The notes beneath the pieces are model-generated. The model was given only the letters and a program-made list of their open reading frames with translations. It was not told the DNA's origin and made no database searches. A stretch of 20,080 nucleotides of DNA from a virus, in the IMG/VR virus record IMGVR_UViG_3300000361_000146, positions 180 through 20,259 of that record; one strand, written 5' to 3'. A program made the position numbers and the translations under genes. Below, piece by piece: positions 728 through 20,080 of the stretch (the first letter of the stretch is position 1; each line of letters begins with the position of its first letter).

Positions 728-2116
728 ATGAATAGTATAGGAAATTTACAGATAGCATTCAAAAAATTTGTTCGAATTAAAAGAGGTGACACTGATACTG
801 TCCCTCAAAATTTTTGGGTACAAATAGCGGACTATTGGTCAGAGACAGAGGGAAATGAAAATGTGAGTAATGATGTTGTCCGAAAAAGATTTGGCAGACG
901 TTATAAAAAATTAAAAAGGGCGAGTTTTTCTGATGAGATTCTCGATGAAATTCTTGATGAGCTATCAAAAGATGATAGAACATATTTTGGAGATGTTGAT
1001 TATGATCCTGATGAGGGAGATGACCATGAAAGTGGAGAATCAGAAAGACGTGGAGAAAGGACGGAAACACGTTGGGATCATGAGAATAACACGGTATCAT
1101 CTAAATCTGAACGTATAAAAACGTTGGATCAACTGTTAGACGTTGCTGAAGTCGATTTAAATATTTTTGAAGTTGAAAAGGAAGTTGTAAACGCTTGGGA
1201 AGTTACTTCATGGAAAAAAGGATATGCTGAGGTTCGGACAAATTATCAAGTAAAAGCATGGCTCAAGAACAAGTTCTTCAATAAAGTTGATGAAAAATGG
1301 GTTGAGAGTTATTTTGATGAGATATCCCCAAATCTCCCAACAATAGATATTCCCAAATTTGATCGAACAGGTGACCCTTTAGTGTGTGCGATTGCTGATT
1401 TACATGCAGGTGGTTTTACAGAAAATATGAAACTTGTACCTGATTATAATTTAGGAGCTTTAGAGGAGAAATTAAAGCGCATCGCATTACGATTAAAAAA
1501 TATTAATCGACCTGTACACTTGAAAATACTTGGCGATTTAATTGAGAGTTTTACAGGGAAAAATCATAAAGATACATGGAAGCAGATTGAAATGCATGGG
1601 ATTAAAGTAATGTTTGTAGTTGCGGATATGCTCCAAAAAATGGTTCAAGAAGCGAATAATATCGTATCAATTGATATAATTTCGGGTAATCATGATCGTA
1701 TTACGTCATCGAATCAAGAAGATGTAGAGGGTCAAGTTGCATTTGGAGTTGCTCAACTATTACGGAGGCAGTTACCTTCAAGTATCAAAATAAATTATGA
1801 TCCATTACTTGTATCCAACAAGCATGATAACGTAAATTACATTCTATTACACGGTCATTTACCAATTGCGAAGAAGAATCCTTCACAAATTGTACTTGAC
1901 TATGGTGATCAGAATTGTTATAATGTAATACTTACGGCTCACTATCATGAAGAGTTATTAAAGAAAAATACTACACGTCTTAGATTGCATCAGGTTCCTT
2001 CTTTAGTACCTGCAAATAACTTTGCTCAAAACCTTGGGGTACATGCTCCTACGGGATTTGTATTATTTGAAAGTAATCAATTCAAGAGTGTAGATTCACG
2101 ATCATTAGCAGTTTAA
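728..2116 (+). CDS. Calcineurin-like metallophosphoesterase with long N-terminal extension
   Basis: A 462-aa protein whose C-terminal half carries an intact two-metal phosphoesterase site. The ligand motifs are D-L-H (224-226), G-D (269-270), GNHD (320-323), HGH (375-377) and H-Y-H (405-407). The family includes Mre11/SbcD-like nucleases, protein phosphatases and phosphodiesterases. Residues 1-215 are additional. Residues 30-65 are basic and could be a small winged-helix DNA-binding domain. A very acidic linker lies near 90-110, and a Trp-containing segment (157-180) precedes the catalytic domain. Position directly before clamp-loader genes suggests a nucleic-acid substrate, but it does not resemble T4 gp47 closely, so I do not call it Mre11. 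The start has no Shine-Dalgarno sequence, and the leader is A/T-rich. Confidence 0.85.
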   Translation: MNSIGNLQIAFKKFVRIKRGDTDTVPQNFWVQIADYWSETEGNENVSNDVVRKRFGRRYKKLKRASFSDEILDEILDELSKDDRTYFGDVDYDPDEGDDHESGESERRGERTETRWDHENNTVSSKSERIKTLDQLLDVAEVDLNIFEVEKEVVNAWEVTSWKKGYAEVRTNYQVKAWLKNKFFNKVDEKWVESYFDEISPNLPTIDIPKFDRTGDPLVCAIADLHAGGFTENMKLVPDYNLGALEEKLKRIALRLKNINRPVHLKILGDLIESFTGKNHKDTWKQIEMHGIKVMFVVADMLQKMVQEANNIVSIDIISGNHDRITSSNQEDVEGQVAFGVAQLLRRQLPSSIKINYDPLLVSNKHDNVNYILLHGHLPIAKKNPSQIVLDYGDQNCYNVILTAHYHEELLKKNTTRLRLHQVPSLVPANNFAQNLGVHAPTGFVLFESNQFKSVDSRSLAV

Positions 2117-5471: not shown

Positions 5472-5996
5472 ATGAACGTAGAGTATTCCAATAAGTGGAT
5501 TAATATTATATCTGATGGTGAAGGTGACGAAAAGTATTATTATGTTAATGAACCGTTGAAAATTTGCATCCTACCATACATTCAAGAAGACGATGAACTT
5601 TTAATTGTATCGTTGATTGAGCCAATCACTATATGGGATGAAGATAGAACAAGAGAAATAACTTGTGTTCAAGGCACAATAGAAGATGGCGATGATCCTA
5701 TAGAGACAGCACCAAGGGAGTTGTATGAAGAGACAGGATTTAACGCTCCTCTACCTGAATTTAAAGAACGTTATACTTATGTCGGTAAGTATAATTTTAG
5801 CAAGTCATCTGATTCCCATAGATATCTATTTTTAGTAGATGTTACGGGAATGGACAGGGGAAAAAAGACTACCGATGGTTCAGATTTTGAAAAACGAACT
5901 AAGATTATGGTTAGTAAACCAACCATATTGGAAGAATCAACTGATATGACACTTCAATTTCTCTATCATTGTTTGAAGCAAAAACTCGAACAATAA
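5472..5996 (+). CDS. Nudix hydrolase
   Basis: 174 aa with a clear Nudix box at residues 68-90: G68, then R82-E83-L84-Y85-E86-E87-T88-G89-F90 in the correct spacing. The first glutamate of the canonical G-x5-E pattern is Asp74, a conservative change. Nudix enzymes hydrolyse nucleoside diphosphates linked to another group, such as ADP-ribose, NAD(H), capped RNA ends or damaged dNTPs. Nothing in the sequence fixes the substrate. Strands before the box (KICILPYIQEDDELLIVS) and after it (RYLFLVDV) match the fold. It is preceded by a 57-base gap with a perfect inverted repeat and followed by PhoH, as a possible start of a new transcription or translation unit. Confidence 0.88.
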   Translation: MNVEYSNKWINIISDGEGDEKYYYVNEPLKICILPYIQEDDELLIVSLIEPITIWDEDRTREITCVQGTIEDGDDPIETAPRELYEETGFNAPLPEFKERYTYVGKYNFSKSSDSHRYLFLVDVTGMDRGKKTTDGSDFEKRTKIMVSKPTILEESTDMTLQFLYHCLKQKLEQ

Positions 5997-6011: not shown

Positions 6012-6677
6012 ATGTCTAATAAATTTAAGACAGTAAGCATACAAGAACTACCTTTATATTTTTATGAATCAAAAACAAAATCACAAGACCAATTAATTAA
6101 TCTTATTGAAGATAACGAAATAGTGTTCACTAAGGGTGTTGCGGGGACGGGGAAAACGTTCTCCACACTTGCTGTAGCACTACAGAAACTTTTAAATAAG
6201 GAATATGAAAAATTAATTATCATTAAACCTTTAGTGGAGGCTGAAGAAAACCTTGGATATCTCCCAGGAACCGTAGACTCGAAAGTATATCCTTATCACT
6301 ACTCAACGCTATTTACACTTGATTCCTTAATTGGAAAAGAGGAACGGATAGAAAAAATGAAAAAGGGTGATATTGAGGTTCTCCCAATTGCATATTTACG
6401 TGGAGTAACATTTAATGACTGCTTTATTGTTATTGATGAAGCTCAGAATGCAACAAAAGGGCAAGTAAAATTGATATTAACACGTATCGGTAATAATTCA
6501 AAGATGGTATTCCTTGGAGATACAGAACAGACAGATCTGAATAAAAATAAAGATTCAGGTTTAGCAGATGCAATTGAAAGATTTGACGATTTAGATAATG
6601 TGGGAGTGTTTTCTTTTGATCGTAAGGATATTGTTCGAAATGAAATCATAACTACACTGTTAGAACGTTATGATTAG
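6012..6677 (+). CDS. phoH: PhoH-like P-loop ATPase
   Basis: 221 aa, the short single-domain form common in phages. Walker A is G-V-A-G-T-G-K-T (42-49). The PhoH signature IKPLVEAEENLGYLPG follows the second strand, Walker B is FIVIDEAQN (138-146), and the sensor strand is MVFLGDTEQTD (165-175). PhoH proteins are ATPases, some fused to nuclease domains in bacteria and proposed to act on RNA. Their role in phages is unsettled. The start lacks a Shine-Dalgarno sequence (leader AATAATATAGTAATAAACAT). Its end overlaps the next gene by 8 bases, and a terminator-shaped hairpin lies 26 bases past the stop. Confidence 0.92.
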   Translation: MSNKFKTVSIQELPLYFYESKTKSQDQLINLIEDNEIVFTKGVAGTGKTFSTLAVALQKLLNKEYEKLIIIKPLVEAEENLGYLPGTVDSKVYPYHYSTLFTLDSLIGKEERIEKMKKGDIEVLPIAYLRGVTFNDCFIVIDEAQNATKGQVKLILTRIGNNSKMVFLGDTEQTDLNKNKDSGLADAIERFDDLDNVGVFSFDRKDIVRNEIITTLLERYD

Positions 6678-7181: not shown

Positions 7182-7710
7182 GTAAACAGTGGAAACAATT
7201 TATTTAAGTGAGGACAATAAGCAGTTTCCTTCACGTAAAGAGTGTAAATTATATGAGGAAGCTCTACAAGAGATAGATCAGATCAATGGTCTCCAATACG
7301 AGATAGTAGGGGGTTATAAGTTTTTCAAAATAAACAATCAAGCAGAATTATATTTTTTTGATCACATGGATGATACTCCTGAAAATAAAAGTGAGAAGAC
7401 GTTGTATGATGTATTTAAAGATTTACGAGGGAAGAGTAATAGAATTTTCCCTTTTTGGATACGGGAAGACGGGAAGGCTACAAAAAAGTCGGAAATATCC
7501 GAGAAAGAAAATCGTATTGACGAGTTAAAATCTGAAATTGATACTATACGTGAAGAGATAGATCAACTACGTAGTTTAAATAGTAGGAAGAAAGATCCAC
7601 TATATAAACAGGACGCTGAAGAGGATGCTGTTTCTGAGGAAGAAGAGGAAGATACTGCGGACGAAGAAATAGAAATAAATGAAGTAGAAGAAAAAAATAA
7701 TGAGGTATAA
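7182..7710 (+). CDS. Acidic coiled-coil protein of unknown function (coding starts at GTG 7189)
   Basis: 173 aa from the GTG at 7189, supported by AGAGG six bases upstream; the first few bases listed belong to its leader. The N-terminus has a short motif seen in many phage small proteins, an opening IYLSEDNKQFPSRKEC that leads into a helix. The middle (about 40-95) is an unassigned globular part with aromatic residues. Residues 100-130 form heptads typical of a coiled coil (ENRIDELKSEIDTIREEIDQL), and the tail from 140 is almost entirely Glu/Asp. It overlaps the next gene by 11 bases. Confidence 0.75.
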
Positions 7711-8296
7711 TGTTTCAGGTATAGGTCAAATACGAGAAGATATTTGGTTCACATCAGACACATGGTTTTTTAATGAGGATATAATGAAGGATCTTGGAAG
7801 ACCATTTACACATCCATTGGACATGAATGATTACATTGTTGAAAAATGGAATAAAAAGGTTAACAAACGTGATATTGTCTATCACCTTGGAAATTTTGGA
7901 ACGGGGAATAAAAAAGAAACAGCGCGATTAATTGACAGGTTAAATGGTAGAATAAATCTTATTGTAGGATCGGAAGATTCAAATGATAACATACTGTCAC
8001 TTAGAAATAAGTTGGCAAGTGTTAATTATAGATTGGATTTCAGAATTGATAGTTGGCTCATCACACTAAATCACTATCCACAGCGATTTTGGAAATCACA
8101 ACATGAAGGGTCGGTACATTTATATGGCTACGTTTGTGGCACAGTACCTGCGGATCAATACTCTTTATGTTTAGATGTTAGCGTAGATACAACGCATGAT
8201 TACGCACCTTATAATTGGGAAGAGATAAAAACTCTTATGAAATTGAAGGGAGAATATATTTCTTTCAATAAGAAGAGATTGGCTAACCCCCTTTAG
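7700..8296 (+). CDS. Metallophosphoesterase-fold protein, probably catalytically inactive
   Basis: 198 aa, the length and order of the small calcineurin-like phosphoesterases found in phages and bacteria. The framework is plain: IWFTSD (15-20), RPF (34-36), a helix with EKWNKKV, YHLGNFG (61-67), RLNGRINLIVG (80-90), LNHYP (123-127), LYGYVCG (141-147) and a late LDVSVD. But most metal ligands are changed. Relatives read SDTHF, LGDF, GNHD and GHVHG, where this protein has SDTW, LGNF, GSED and GYVCG. Only Asp20, Asp93 and His125 remain of the usual set. It is therefore likely a pseudoenzyme kept for binding or structure. The start overlaps the preceding gene by 11 bases, and an endonuclease gene follows 2 bases after. 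Confidence 0.8.
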   Translation: MRYNVSGIGQIREDIWFTSDTWFFNEDIMKDLGRPFTHPLDMNDYIVEKWNKKVNKRDIVYHLGNFGTGNKKETARLIDRLNGRINLIVGSEDSNDNILSLRNKLASVNYRLDFRIDSWLITLNHYPQRFWKSQHEGSVHLYGYVCGTVPADQYSLCLDVSVDTTHDYAPYNWEEIKTLMKLKGEYISFNKKRLANPL

Positions 8297-8298
8297 AA

Positions 8299-9255
8299 AT
8301 GGTAATATACGGGATAGAGAATATAGAAAATGGGAAGTTGTATGTGGGTCAATCTCGAAATAAATTGAACAAACGGGTGAATGAACATAAACGGTTTTTG
8401 AGGTATGGAACCCATGTTAATAACTATCTACAAAATTCATGGGATAAATATGGAGAAAAAAATTTTCGATTTTTTATATTGGAAAAGGACTTTGATAATT
8501 TAGAAGATTTAAATGATGCTGAAAGATTTTGGATAAATGTATTAAATACACTACATAGAGATCATGGATATAATTTGAAGAGTGGAGGTGGTAACGGAAA
8601 AATTATAGATGAAGAATATTTAAACAGTATAAGTTTAAATGTATATCAATATGAATATCCAACGGGAATTTTTATTAATGGGTATGAGTCGTCTAAAGAG
8701 GCATCGAGGAAAAATAAAATTGATTGTAAAACAATTCAAAAGTGTTGCAGGGGAGAATTAGTAACATATAATGGATTTTATTGGTCATATGAAAAGCTTG
8801 AACGTTATGAGTTTGATAAAAATAAATATACACCTGTATACCAATTTACTTTGGATGGGGAATTCATTAGAGAATGGGATAATGCGACAAAACCTAACAA
8901 AGATTTAAACATTGATCGGAGTAACATATTGAAGTGTTGCAATGGAACATATAGTCAATCGGGGGGCTTTATTTGGAAGTTTAAATATAATGATGATGGC
9001 TGTGAAATATCTAAAGATATAAATATGAAACGAAATCTATCTAAAAGGAAGAGAAAAGAATTATACCAATTTGATTTAGATGGTAAATTTATTCGGGAAT
9101 GGGAATCAGCGGGTTCAGTTGAAAGGGAGTTAGGTATAGCAAGATCAAATATTACAAATGTGTGCAAAGGGAAAAAATACAATAAAACTGCGGGTGGGTT
9201 TATTTGGAGATATAAATATAGTGGGGATGGGATTTTAAATAAAAAGAAAATTTGA
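8299..9255 (+). CDS. GIY-YIG homing endonuclease with three NUMOD1-like repeats
   Basis: 318 aa. The nuclease domain (1-95) has IYGI (3-6), YVG (15-17), a conserved Arg-His region (KRVNEHK, 25-31), a catalytic-type Glu75 in DAERFWI and the closing GYNLKSGG. The rest is three copies of a DNA-binding NUMOD1-like helix-turn-helix unit at about 115-164, 180-229 and 255-306. Each starts with (V/L)YQ(F/Y), carries a Glu-Trp or similar motif and ends F(I/Y)W. Free-standing GIY-YIG genes spread by cutting alleles that lack them. It begins 2 bases after the phosphoesterase-like gene, without a ribosome site, and lies just before a promoter. Confidence 0.92.
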   Translation: MVIYGIENIENGKLYVGQSRNKLNKRVNEHKRFLRYGTHVNNYLQNSWDKYGEKNFRFFILEKDFDNLEDLNDAERFWINVLNTLHRDHGYNLKSGGGNGKIIDEEYLNSISLNVYQYEYPTGIFINGYESSKEASRKNKIDCKTIQKCCRGELVTYNGFYWSYEKLERYEFDKNKYTPVYQFTLDGEFIREWDNATKPNKDLNIDRSNILKCCNGTYSQSGGFIWKFKYNDDGCEISKDINMKRNLSKRKRKELYQFDLDGKFIREWESAGSVERELGIARSNITNVCKGKKYNKTAGGFIWRYKYSGDGILNKKKI

Positions 9256-12840: not shown

Positions 12841-13578
12841 TTGGGATACATTTACAAAATAAAAAATATCATTTCTAATAAAACGTATATAGGACAGACG
12901 GTGAAGAAAGATGTAAGAAGGCGTTGGTCTGAACATTTATGCCTTCTGAGATCTGATAATCACTATAATAGCCATCTACAAAACTCTTTTAATAAACATG
13001 GAGAGGAATTTTTTATATTTGGTGTTGTAAAACAACATGATACAATTGAGGAATTAAATGAAAGTGAAACATTTTTTATAGAAAAATTTGAAAGTTTGAC
13101 ACCTAATGGTTATAATTTAACAACAGGCGGTCAAAATACAATTTTATCTCAGGAAATTATTGAAAAATTAAGTGGTGAGAATAATCATAATTACGGTTTA
13201 AAAGGTAAAGATCATTATTTATATGGTATAGAGAGAACCGATGAGGTTAAAGAAAAGGTGAGACAAAAAGTTCTTTTAGCATATAAAGAAGATAGGTTAA
13301 ACGTAACAGGGGCGAATAACCCATTTTATGGGAAAAAGCATACAGAAAAAACTAAGAAAAAAATATCAAATAGTAGAACAGGAAAAAGAGTAAGTGGTAA
13401 CCATCCCAATGCTAAAAAAGTTATTCAATACGATTTAAATGGTGAAGAAATTAAGGAATGGGATTGTATAATAGATGCGGGGAAAGAGATAGGCATTAAT
13501 AGAAGAAATATATCTGCGGTTTGTAACGGGAAGAGAAAAACGTGTGGCGGTTATAAATGGAAATATAAAGAATTATGA
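12841..13578 (+). CDS. GIY-YIG homing endonuclease with NUMOD3 and NUMOD1 modules (TTG start)
   Basis: 245 aa. The frame has a stop at 12832-12834, so the TTG at 12841 is the only plausible start; the resulting MGYIYKI is exactly how the family begins. The nuclease domain (1-97) has the GIY-type strand, YIG (16-18), an Arg/His region (RRRWSEH), Glu76 in the catalytic position and GYNLTTGG. NUMOD3-type segments follow (GENNHNYG, then NNPFYGKKHTEKTKKKIS), and a NUMOD1-like unit closes the protein (about 195-243, VIQYDLNG to GGYKWKY). The purine stretch AAAAGGA is only one base from the TTG, so translation should be weak. Its stop overlaps the KTSC gene by 4 bases. Confidence 0.9.
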   Translation: MGYIYKIKNIISNKTYIGQTVKKDVRRRWSEHLCLLRSDNHYNSHLQNSFNKHGEEFFIFGVVKQHDTIEELNESETFFIEKFESLTPNGYNLTTGGQNTILSQEIIEKLSGENNHNYGLKGKDHYLYGIERTDEVKEKVRQKVLLAYKEDRLNVTGANNPFYGKKHTEKTKKKISNSRTGKRVSGNHPNAKKVIQYDLNGEEIKEWDCIIDAGKEIGINRRNISAVCNGKRKTCGGYKWKYKEL

Positions 13579-13902: not shown

Positions 13903-14817
13903 ATGTATAAAAAATATTATGTATATCGACATATAAATTTAACGACAAATAATATTTTTTATATAGGAAAAGGTAAAAAGCCGAAAAAATATAAATCATA
14001 TAGTAAAGAATATGGTAGAGCTTTTTCTAAAAATGGTAGAAATTCTGATTGGAAAAAAATTTTTGATAATAATGATATAAAGGTAGAAATTATTTTTGAA
14101 ACGTATAATGAGAAAGAGGCATTAAATAAAGAAATAGAATTTATAAATATATATGGAAGAAAAGATTTAAATGAAGGCAATTTAACAAATAAAACTGATG
14201 GCGGTGATACAGGAGGTAATATAATTTTTACTGATGAGCATAGGAATAAATTATCTAAGAGCAAAAAAGGAAAAAATAATCCGTTTTACGGTAAGAAGAG
14301 ACCAAAACATTCTGAATGGATGAAAAAAGAAGGAAACAACCATTTAAAAAATAAAACTTTTGTCGAAGCTTATGGAGAGGAAAAGGCTAAAAATATAATT
14401 GATAATATGAAAGAAAAATTATCAGGTGAGAACAGTTCTATGTATGGAATTAAAAAAAGTGAAGAACATTGTAAGAATGTTTCAATAGGAGTTCAAAAAG
14501 CGTATGATGAGGGTAGATTGAATAGAGAAGGTGAAAATAATACATTTTATAATAAGACACATACTGAAGAAGTGAGAAAGGTGATATCTGAAAAAAATAA
14601 ACTTGCTCATAAAAATGGATTATTTGATTATGATAAATATAAAAGATCAGTTATATGTATAACTACAGGAAAGGTTTATAAAGGTATAGTAGATGTTTTG
14701 GAAGATCATGACGTTAAATATGGCACATTAGCGTGGTGGCTTAATCAAGGTAGAAACACAGATCAATTTATGTATTATAGCGAATATTTAGAACAACAAG
14801 AAACACATAAAGAATAA
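13903..14817 (+). CDS. GIY-YIG homing endonuclease, SegB-like, with NUMOD3 modules
   Basis: 304 aa. It starts at ATG with AGAGG six bases upstream. The nuclease domain opens YYVYRHIN (a GIY variant), has YIGKGK (20-25), the WKKIF helix, a catalytic-type Glu near 77-79 in NKEIEFI and the closing GGDTGGN. NUMOD3-like repeats follow: KGKNNPFYGKKRPKHSEWMK (from about 122), then GENSSMYGIKKSEEHC and GENNTFYNKTHTEEVRK. The C-terminus (CITTGKVYKGIVDVLEDHD, then AWWLNQGRN) looks like a further DNA-binding module. It is A/T-rich and Lys/Asn-rich compared with neighbours, as expected of a recent mobile gene. It ends TAATG, sharing one base with the next start. Confidence 0.9.
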   Translation: MYKKYYVYRHINLTTNNIFYIGKGKKPKKYKSYSKEYGRAFSKNGRNSDWKKIFDNNDIKVEIIFETYNEKEALNKEIEFINIYGRKDLNEGNLTNKTDGGDTGGNIIFTDEHRNKLSKSKKGKNNPFYGKKRPKHSEWMKKEGNNHLKNKTFVEAYGEEKAKNIIDNMKEKLSGENSSMYGIKKSEEHCKNVSIGVQKAYDEGRLNREGENNTFYNKTHTEEVRKVISEKNKLAHKNGLFDYDKYKRSVICITTGKVYKGIVDVLEDHDVKYGTLAWWLNQGRNTDQFMYYSEYLEQQETHKE

Positions 14818-16326: not shown

Positions 16327-17388
16327 ATGAATAAAAAATTTGATTTTGACGATATTCAATTAGTACCTTCTGAATCTTCACGTATTAACTCACGATCAGA
16401 AGTAAATGTATACGATGAGTTTAATTTCCTACCAATTATTTCCGCACCAATGGACACTGTATATTACGGTGATGTAACTAAATGGGAATTATTTGAAAAT
16501 GACTTCTATATAACAATACCAAGAAATAAAAATCATGTAAACGAACGGTTAATGTTATGTTCGGATTTTACATCACCATTCATTTCTATATCTTTAACTG
16601 AATTAGAAGCCATTAATCATGGTCACACTATTTTTGAAACCGCCATTGATGAAAAGTGGAGTACATTACCATTTAAAATTCTCGTTGATATAGCGAATGG
16701 ACACATGGAGTCATTGGAAAACGAAGTGAAAATATTTAAAAAAAGATTTCCAAATGAGATTTTAATGGTTGGAAATGTTGCAAATCCGAAAACTTATAGG
16801 AGACTATCAGAAGCAGGTGCAGACTATATAAGAATTAGTATTGGATCGGGTAGTGCCTGCCTCACATCAGTTCAAACATCAGTGGGTTATCCGATGGCAT
16901 CATTAATATCAGAGTGCTATACGGAATCTTTAAGTTTAGACAACCCTGCTAAAATTGTAGCTGATGGGGGATTTAGAAATTACTCCGATTTTATTAAAGG
17001 TTTAGCATTGGGAGCTGATTATATTATGTCAGGTTCAGTTTTTAATAAAGCGGTTGATATAGGTGGAGATTGTTATTGGTGGAAATTCAAAATACGAGAT
17101 GAGATGAAGAAATTAAAATTATTTGATCTCGGTTTTAATTTAAAAAGACCTTATAGAGGAATGTCAACTAAGGACGTTCAAAAAGATTGGGGTAGATCAA
17201 ATCCAAAGACAGCGGAAGGAATTTCTAAAATGAATAATATAGAATATACCCTTTGTGGTTGGAGGGAAAATTTTATATCTTATTTGAGTAGTGCGATGAG
17301 CTATACAAATAGTAAAAATTTAACAGAATTCAAAGGAAGTGATTACGTAGTAATTACAGACAACGCTCTTAAACGATTTAAAAAATGA
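16327..17388 (+). CDS. GMP reductase / IMP dehydrogenase family protein
   Basis: 353 aa, the size of GMP reductase and without the CBS pair of most IMP dehydrogenases. FDFDDIQLVP (5-14) is the conserved N-terminus, so the start is secure. PIISAPMDTV (36-45), LVDIANGH (119-126), GNVANPKTYRRLSEAGADYIRI (149-170), the active-site loop GSGSACLTSVQTSVGYP (173-189, Cys178), ADGGFRN (212-218) and the phosphate-binding ALGADYIMSGSVF (227-239) follow in the expected order. YRGMS (276-280) and an Glu-Gly pair near 297-298 resemble the family's flap. The family interconverts IMP with XMP or GMP; which reaction cannot be settled here. The usual Cys-Thr-Thr is Cys-Leu-Thr. No ribosome site precedes the start, and the stop overlaps the next gene as ATGA. 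Confidence 0.87.
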   Translation: MNKKFDFDDIQLVPSESSRINSRSEVNVYDEFNFLPIISAPMDTVYYGDVTKWELFENDFYITIPRNKNHVNERLMLCSDFTSPFISISLTELEAINHGHTIFETAIDEKWSTLPFKILVDIANGHMESLENEVKIFKKRFPNEILMVGNVANPKTYRRLSEAGADYIRISIGSGSACLTSVQTSVGYPMASLISECYTESLSLDNPAKIVADGGFRNYSDFIKGLALGADYIMSGSVFNKAVDIGGDCYWWKFKIRDEMKKLKLFDLGFNLKRPYRGMSTKDVQKDWGRSNPKTAEGISKMNNIEYTLCGWRENFISYLSSAMSYTNSKNLTEFKGSDYVVITDNALKRFKK

Positions 17389-19126: not shown

Positions 19127-20080
19127 TTATACTCTGTATATTCCCAAAGGAATTTTTCTTAATTTATCTGATAAAGCCTGTGTTGTTTGCTGTTCAATAT
19201 CAAGTGCTCTTTCTTTAGAGAGTTTATTCAAATACTCTTTCATATCCTCTTCTAATTGTCTAATCTCTTCTTTACCCTCACTAACTAAGGCGTCACCATT
19301 TAATGAAACGTCACCATTTGGATATTGCAGTGAAGAGAATTTTCTTCTATTCTCACCCAATGTAATTTTTACAAGTGCTTCAGCATATGAAATAACCCAA
19401 TATTGATCCCTTGGAGATATTTTGTCCCATTGGAAGTGGTTGAAATTAACTTTTGTAGGGTCATTTATAATATCTCCGTTTGCTTCATTGTATCTTTCAT
19501 CTACATTATTTTCTCCCTTCTCTTCCGATGCTAATGTATATTTGAAATTTAGTTGAAAGCTATGTTTTGGTATAGGAAATAATCTCAATACGCCACCTGT
19601 AATTTCAAAACCATAATTACTTGATCGTATATCACGTGACATCTTGATGGATTGCATTCTTTGAACATTCCAAGATAAAGGTAGAAGGGTAAAACTATTA
19701 CTGTATGATCCTGCACCAAATCCAAATTGCCCTGAAATTGTATCAGCGGAATCAACTCCAACGAAGTTAGCTGTTTGATTTCCGATTACACTTGGAGGAA
19801 TTGGATTATGATATACTTCTCTAATTGTAAATCCCTTTTCGTCAGGATGTTCAGTGGCAAAGTATTCACTCTTTAAATTGTATAACTGCTTACCTTTCTC
19901 TGTTTGAATACTTCCAATATACATTGGAACATCTCCACCGACTCCTGTTTCAGTAGCATATGCAGATGAAAGTCTGAGATAGTAGTCCATACTTGGATAT
20001 ACCAATTTATCAGAATCAACTTCAGATACATCTTTACCCACTAAAGAGAAATAATCTTCTGTTACTTTAAATTCATTCAT
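19127..20080 (-). CDS. 13: T4 gp13-like neck protein (may continue past the window edge)
   Basis: 317 aa on the minus strand if translation starts at the ATG at base 20080, which is the window edge, so the true start may lie outside. The length is close to T4 gp13 (309 aa). The late part resembles marine T4-like neck proteins. It reads ISPRDQYWVISYAEALVKITLGENRRKFSSL, then DVSLNGDALVSEGKEEIRQLEEDM: an aromatic-rich helix, an L-G-E-x-R-x-K-F motif, an L-N-G-x-x-L turn and a long helix. The earlier part holds paired aromatic strands (LRLFPIPKHSFQLNFKYT). In T4 gp13 with gp14 forms the neck that joins head and tail. Adjacency to the gp15-like gene supports the call, but gp14 is not found next to it. 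Confidence 0.55.
   Translation of the reverse strand: MNEFKVTEDYFSLVGKDVSEVDSDKLVYPSMDYYLRLSSAYATETGVGGDVPMYIGSIQTEKGKQLYNLKSEYFATEHPDEKGFTIREVYHNPIPPSVIGNQTANFVGVDSADTISGQFGFGAGSYSNSFTLLPLSWNVQRMQSIKMSRDIRSSNYGFEITGGVLRLFPIPKHSFQLNFKYTLASEEKGENNVDERYNEANGDIINDPTKVNFNHFQWDKISPRDQYWVISYAEALVKITLGENRRKFSSLQYPNGDVSLNGDALVSEGKEEIRQLEEDMKEYLNKLSKERALDIEQQTTQALSDKLRKIPLGIYRV

Follow-up and report, generated by a model that had tools for sequence, protein, structure and literature searches.

Introduction

It is an established rule of the calcineurin-like phosphoesterase superfamily that two metals are held by the residues of its conserved motifs. The small subunits of eukaryotic DNA polymerases (Pol delta p50 and Pol epsilon Dpb2) carry an inactivated phosphoesterase fold, retained to scaffold an information-processing complex. 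VPS29 was shown experimentally not to be an active metallophosphatase, acting instead as a rigid scaffold that binds metal weakly without activity (PMC3101248). In phages, "phosphoesterases" are annotated by fold and are assumed to be enzymes. A literature search found no paper describing phage pseudo-phosphoesterases such as those reported here, although this does not prove that there is none, and a search on COG4186 and its solved structure 1xm7 found nothing useful.

The window analysed in this study is a stretch of 20,080 nucleotides from a viral metagenomic record (IMGVR_UViG_3300000361_000146). An earlier note on its sequence had described the ORF at 7700-8296 as a phosphoesterase that has lost most of its metal ligands and is kept by selection for a non-catalytic role. 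The sequence comparisons presented here suggest that this gene represents a non-enzymatic branch, maintained in many environmental phages, of an established family of phage phosphoesterases, rather than a decaying gene.

A phosphoesterase-family gene in the window

The genes of the window that bear on the analysis are as follows.

728-2116 (+), separate phosphoesterase with an exonuclease PHROG match; motifs DLH, GD, GNHD, HGH and AHYH intact by eye
5472-5996 (+), Nudix-like protein, named from sequence motifs by reading; conserved upstream in all three members of the window lineage
6012-6677 (+), PhoH-family ATPase; retained upstream across the window lineage
7189-7710 (+), coiled-coil protein, candidate partner; weak phrog_3671 match
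7700-8296 (+), putative pseudo-phosphoesterase; 198 aa, phrog_547/COG4186-type calcineurin-like fold

The ORF at 7700-8296 has an ATG start, a TAG stop and an uninterrupted frame, and it begins 11 bp inside the 3' end of the coiled-coil gene. When its product was used in a profile search, the best PHROG was phrog_547 "phosphoesterase" (E 4.1e-30, residues 13-186), a significant match over most of the protein that places it in phrog_547/COG4186. A Pfam search of the protein matched no model and NCBIfam gave no useful family; the silence of Pfam is probably explained by models that lean on the motifs missing here. A tblastn search of phage records with the window protein returned 1101 records, every one below 60% identity, and megablast of the window (whose source record has 20,259 bases) against phage records found no near copy. 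Additionally, scans with one protein at a time as the query (the window protein, PhoH or DUF932) gave distant relatives only or none. Nineteen relatives taken from phage records read D-x-H, G-D, G-N-[HY], H and G-H-x-H, with GNYE being the reading of the second Enterococcus-type copies among them.

The phosphoesterase at 728-2116 was considered as a close paralogue and was rejected, since there was no significant BLASTP similarity to the product of 7700-8296 and its PHROG matches are to exonucleases. The earlier note had offered it as a possible contrast, and with its motifs intact by eye it can serve as one, though only loosely, as it is no near paralogue. Three further ORFs in the window (8299-9255, 12841-13578 and 13903-14817) resemble homing endonucleases of the GIY-YIG/NUMOD type; the first lies directly behind the pseudo-phosphoesterase and matched GIY-YIG and NUMOD1, and the other two were recognised by reading.

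Loss of metal ligands in the window protein

Ligands were scored on an alignment of the window protein with 72 non-redundant intact relatives. The five motifs of the window protein are listed below.

7754-7765 (+), motif 1, SDTW (residues 19-22); canonical S-D-x-H, with D20 kept and H22 changed to W, leaving no D-x-H
7886-7897 (+), motif 2, LGNF (residues 63-66); canonical L-G-D, with the bridging D65 changed to N
7967-7978 (+), motif 3, GSED (residues 90-93); canonical G-N-H-D, with N91 changed to S, H92 to E and D93 kept, leaving no G-N-H-[D/E]
8069-8080 (+), motif 4, NHYP (residues 124-127); ligand H125 kept, so that the motif 4 His is present
8123-8140 (+), motif 5, YGYVCG (residues 142-147); canonical x-G-H-x-H-G, with H144 changed to Y and H146 to C, leaving no G-H-x-H

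Six of the eight ligands are thus replaced (H22W, D65N, N91S, H92E, H144Y and H146C) and two are left. The bridging position 65 is D in 100% of the intact relatives, and a fourth conserved active-site His, H25 (95% conserved in the relatives), is Asn in the window protein. When the other columns with at least 90% conservation were compared, the window protein was found to keep 18 of 19 (1/19 lost against 6/8 ligands, Fisher p=0.0006). The core residues W50, N51, D58, H62-L63-G64, G83, P127 and G143 are common to the window protein and the intact family. The concentration of substitutions at the ligands, with 18 of the 19 other sites kept, therefore argues against general decay. The variants SDTW, LGNF, GSED and YGYVCG are present as the earlier note described them, and its claim of ligand loss stands for six of the eight positions; the loss is not total, as D20 remains, together with H125 in an HYP motif that the note did not list. 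From known chemistry, hydrolysis by the window protein is unlikely because the bridging Asp and five other metal-holding residues are gone.

Predicted fold

The AlphaFold2 model of the window protein has an ordered, intact fold (pLDDT 93.5, pTM 0.88). The solved structure nearest to the model is 1xm7 (Foldseek E 1.7e-10), and the VIA comparison with that structure gave Z 19.5 and 2.3 A rmsd over 163 residues. VPS29 is among the VIA matches of the model (Z 8.9), and Pol delta p50 (3e0j) is among its Foldseek matches with a weak structural score. The model of the coiled-coil protein is only moderately confident (pLDDT 72.6).

Closest relatives and a shared gene order

A DNA pattern that selects for D65N, W-N..[VI]...D.[VI][YF]-H-L-G-N-F, matched 116 loci on viral contigs. 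The closest of these to the window are L032/L072, whose 197-aa product is 40% identical to the window protein and reads SDQL, LGNF, GTSD, NHHP and HGST. Another pattern led to L254/L255, which are about 43-45% identical and read SDHR, LGNF, GTDD, NHHP and HGAV. A two-row alignment search recovered the contigs of L032 and L072 and no others, and a three-row search added only the contig of L254 and one intact relative, L256. The window, L032/L072/L157 and L254/L255 are treated here as three members of one lineage (the window lineage), and the ligand loss is common to all of them at the same locus.

D20, N65, D93 and H125 are invariant across the three members, and the lost positions vary (W/L/R at 22, E/S/D at 92, Y/S/A at 144 and C/F/R at 146). 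The comparison suggests that the metal site has been released from constraint and is free to drift, and that the protein is not. When identities of the pseudo-phosphoesterase were compared with those of PhoH, they were 45% vs 36% for the window and L255 and 51% vs 51% for L157 and L255, and by such measures the pseudo-phosphoesterase appears to be conserved to roughly the same degree as PhoH and Nudix within the lineage. Given the invariance of D20, N65, D93 and H125, these residues may still bind one metal, or a ligand, weakly.

This variation also bears on the proposal that the protein is still an enzyme, using one-metal or metal-free catalysis or a re-modelled site (with, for example, N65, E92, C146, D93 or D96 as new ligands). 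D20 and H125 are indeed kept, and a Bacteroides homologue (L249, described below) has the single change D65N, so that N at 65 is tolerable alone. However, the two closest members already fail to conserve E92 (E/S/D) and C146 (C/F/R), all three carry Asn in place of the bridging Asp, and the lost positions hold no alternative conserved set of H, C, D or E. Continued catalysis is thus quite improbable, and the different, complete set of ligands that the earlier note had raised as a possibility was not found in the family, since the homologues conserve no replacement set.

The frames are open in all three members, that of L254 only when TGA is read as Trp. The three TGA codons in the L254 pseudo-phosphoesterase fall at W50, W131 and W139, a TGA likewise interrupts the PhoH gene on the same contig, and neither gene has a TGG. 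L254 as a decayed gene was therefore rejected in favour of recoding, as the stops fall exactly on Trp positions and PhoH is split likewise. The phage in question is IMGVR_UViG_3300012267_000007, with TGA as Trp in the pseudo-phosphoesterase (L254:3171-3767 (-)) and in PhoH (L255:4331-6579 (+)); in the window and L032 the code is the standard one.

The order Nudix, PhoH, coiled-coil gene and phosphoesterase is conserved in the window, L032 and L254/L255, and PhoH is about 1.1 kb or less upstream of the pseudo-phosphoesterase in all three. The L032 locus shares synteny with the window, running Nudix, PhoH, small gene(s), coiled-coil gene, pseudo-phosphoesterase, and it also contains a gene in opposite orientation that matches window positions 19127-20080. 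The coiled-coil gene adjoins the pseudo-phosphoesterase in 3/3 members, with a 1 bp gap in L032/L157 and an overlap in L255, and lies near no other family member examined. In both L032 and L255 the pseudo-phosphoesterase is followed by a peptidoglycan-binding/hydrolase-like gene and then by a GroEL-like chaperonin of 865-874 aa whose large insert resembles an intein (all by reading only).

A larger clade of putative pseudo-phosphoesterases

Most of the 116 LGNF loci belong to three further types, named SDTW, SDTF and SNLQ, which show coordinated ligand loss (more than 110 loci, from environmental viruses). SDTW types keep H144, and SNLQ types have lost essentially the whole pocket with the protein equally conserved. 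A related pseudo-phosphoesterase, L148, sits in a 462-kb huge-phage record. The ligand loss of the window protein is thus shared by its homologues, as the earlier note had asked of them, both by the three members at one locus and by this large and mostly sigma-linked clade. The same losses on independent contigs (L032/L072, L254 and more than 110 others) also argue against an assembly or sequencing artefact, an explanation to which the source lends itself, as the window is a metagenomic contig of 20 kb for which the collections contain no near copy, and which is hardly conceivable given those contigs.

A sigma-70-like factor, identified by phrog_1740 and PF04542, was found within 2.5 kb of 37/39 SDTW, 44/57 SNLQ and 7/16 SDTF genes (88/112) vs 0/107 intact genes, and PhoH within the same distance of 12/16 SDTF vs 1/107 intact genes; these neighbour associations lie inside one clade and are not phylogenetically independent. 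No sigma-70-like gene was found within 2.5 kb in the window or in L032/L157, and with the window lineage lacking a linked sigma factor, the roles of the two pseudo groups may differ. An IMP dehydrogenase/GMP reductase-like protein is encoded in the window at 16327-17388 (PF00478, E 9e-35), and an IMPDH-like gene, identified by reading, is near SNLQ pseudo-phosphoesterases in nine loci.

Census and selection

As the LGNF search selects for D65N, a further pattern was run that ignores every ligand position; it gave 112 loci, some of whose rows end at contig ends and among which related loci are non-independent. The sample is bimodal: 74 loci are fully intact and a few more carry a single change, which brings the essentially intact set to about 80, whereas about 27/112 have four or more ligands lost, and none fall between the two modes. 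The LGNF pattern was matched at only four places in 257 Gb of prokaryote genomes. The gene at L249:3025-3630 (-), from Bacteroides stercorirosoris, has D65N with every other ligand intact, possibly a first step toward inactivation. Two 153-aa homologues on Bacilli MAG contigs, L246:2142-2603 (-) and L248:4720-5181 (+), have LGNF and no GHxH; one of the pair keeps SDTH and the other reads ANTN, and judging from these motifs they represent ligand loss in cellular (or prophage) DNA. The fourth contig, L247, carries an SDTW type with a second, intact-looking copy. A second intact-type copy was also present in 7/28 long pseudo-bearing records (six by reading of the sequences and the seventh, G020, by a match equal to theirs in length and score), and therefore both forms can coexist. 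The gene at L034:422-1066 (+), a relative of the GNYE-type second copies in Enterococcus phages, reads ADNN, LGNF and GNYE and keeps AHIH; the DxH His and the bridging Asp are lost, possibly another independent partial loss.

For independent close pairs of the larger clade, dN/dS was 0.03-0.23 (computed from pairs that share more than 70% identity and have dS 0.15-1.0; values from saturated pairs were inflated and are left out). These values point to purifying selection in the larger clade, and for the window lineage PhoH-level conservation suggests the same, though only indirectly. The many simultaneous active-site substitutions are what one might cite for a decaying gene on its way out. However, the frames are open in three members, conservation resembles that of PhoH, 18/19 of the other conserved sites are kept, dN/dS is low in the larger clade and the census holds no intermediates, which leaves decay very improbable. 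The relatives accordingly match the view of the earlier note that the scaffold is well kept, with open frames and PhoH- and Nudix-like conservation in the window lineage and the dN/dS values in the larger clade.

One origin or two

When trees were built with the nine active-site columns removed, the window lineage (100/98) was placed among intact relatives and the larger clade apart (100/99); an earlier tree likewise grouped the window and L032 together inside the intact relatives. The larger clade is marked by FGR, NFA(W)DP and W165, and also by R157 in SDTW and SDTF types. The window protein has FFN, NFGTG and T165 at these marks, and the clade residues are absent. However, a single clade of all pseudo forms was not rejected by the AU test (p 0.229; p 0.093), and the adjacency of PhoH in the window lineage and in 12/16 SDTF loci could reflect shared ancestry or shared function. 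Two origins of ligand loss are provisionally favoured over one. A broader reading is that a COG4186 phosphoesterase was converted at least twice, independently, into a dead scaffold serving gene expression under phage direction, one lineage pairing it with a phage sigma factor and the other with PhoH and a coiled-coil partner, as a viral counterpart of the dead phosphoesterase subunits in eukaryotic replication and trafficking complexes; this is offered tentatively and is somewhat doubtful.

Discussion

The explanation judged probable is that the window protein is a pseudo-phosphoesterase whose catalytic two-metal centre is permanently lost and whose fold and non-catalytic core are retained by selection, making it a non-catalytic binding scaffold, probably in phage RNA or gene-expression transactions. 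Such a protein would most likely be a rigid, metal-independent scaffold like VPS29, with the former active-site face as a binding surface for protein or nucleic acid. The proposed role in RNA or gene expression is suggested by the neighbours, namely PhoH and the sigma-70-like factor, and also by intact copies that lie near RNA ligase or polynucleotide kinase genes (several copies, in named phages). In the window lineage the protein may form a complex with the coiled-coil protein encoded just upstream; this is a guess that draws on the adjacency of the two genes in three members and on their overlap.

A rival proposal is that the protein binds a ligand independently of metal (a nucleotide, cyclic nucleotide or RNA end) and acts as a sponge or sensor, possibly as a counter-defence decoy. 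The RNA ligase and polynucleotide kinase genes beside intact relatives suggest RNA-end substrates, the four invariant residues D20, N65, H125 and D93 lie at the pocket, and H144 is also kept in SDTW types. However, several pocket positions vary freely among the three closest members, H25 is lost as well, SNLQ types are equally conserved proteins with essentially no pocket left, and there is no defence-island context. This proposal is therefore considered unlikely, though less so than continued catalysis. The binding-scaffold explanation, by comparison, bears out the non-catalytic role under selection that the earlier note proposed; the decoy or inhibitor that it also named is not specifically supported, because the gene sits in gene-expression and metabolism blocks and in no defence island.

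If the scaffold explanation is true, the hydrolase annotation is wrong for members without a metal site, which make up about a quarter of the ligand-blind sample. The family would also be a ready comparative system, with intact, D65N-only, partly lost and fully lost forms, for the question of how an enzyme becomes a scaffold. For the larger clade, the linkage to a sigma factor supplies a concrete candidate partner.

Of the systems with which the window protein can be compared, the phrog_547/COG4186 phosphoesterases, with Aquifex aq_1665 (PDB 1xm7) as the solved relative, are the same family by sequence and fold. Whereas D-x-H, G-D, G-N-H, H and G-H-x-H are all present in intact members, the window protein keeps 2/8 ligands. 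The SDTW, SDTF and SNLQ pseudo-phosphoesterases are also the same family and share with the window lineage a coordinated ligand loss that includes the same D65N; however, FGR, NFA(W)DP, W165 and a mostly sigma-70-like linkage are their own, and the window lineage lacks these features and branches apart. Pol delta p50 and Pol epsilon Dpb2 are eukaryotic and larger and have an OB domain, and the likeness to them is structural, with a weak score and no evident sequence kinship. VPS29 of retromer is likewise eukaryotic and of a distinct family, with about 10% identity over the aligned part, but it shares the calcineurin-like phosphoesterase fold, the lack of enzyme activity and the use as a scaffold, and the comparison is thus one of how the two proteins may work.
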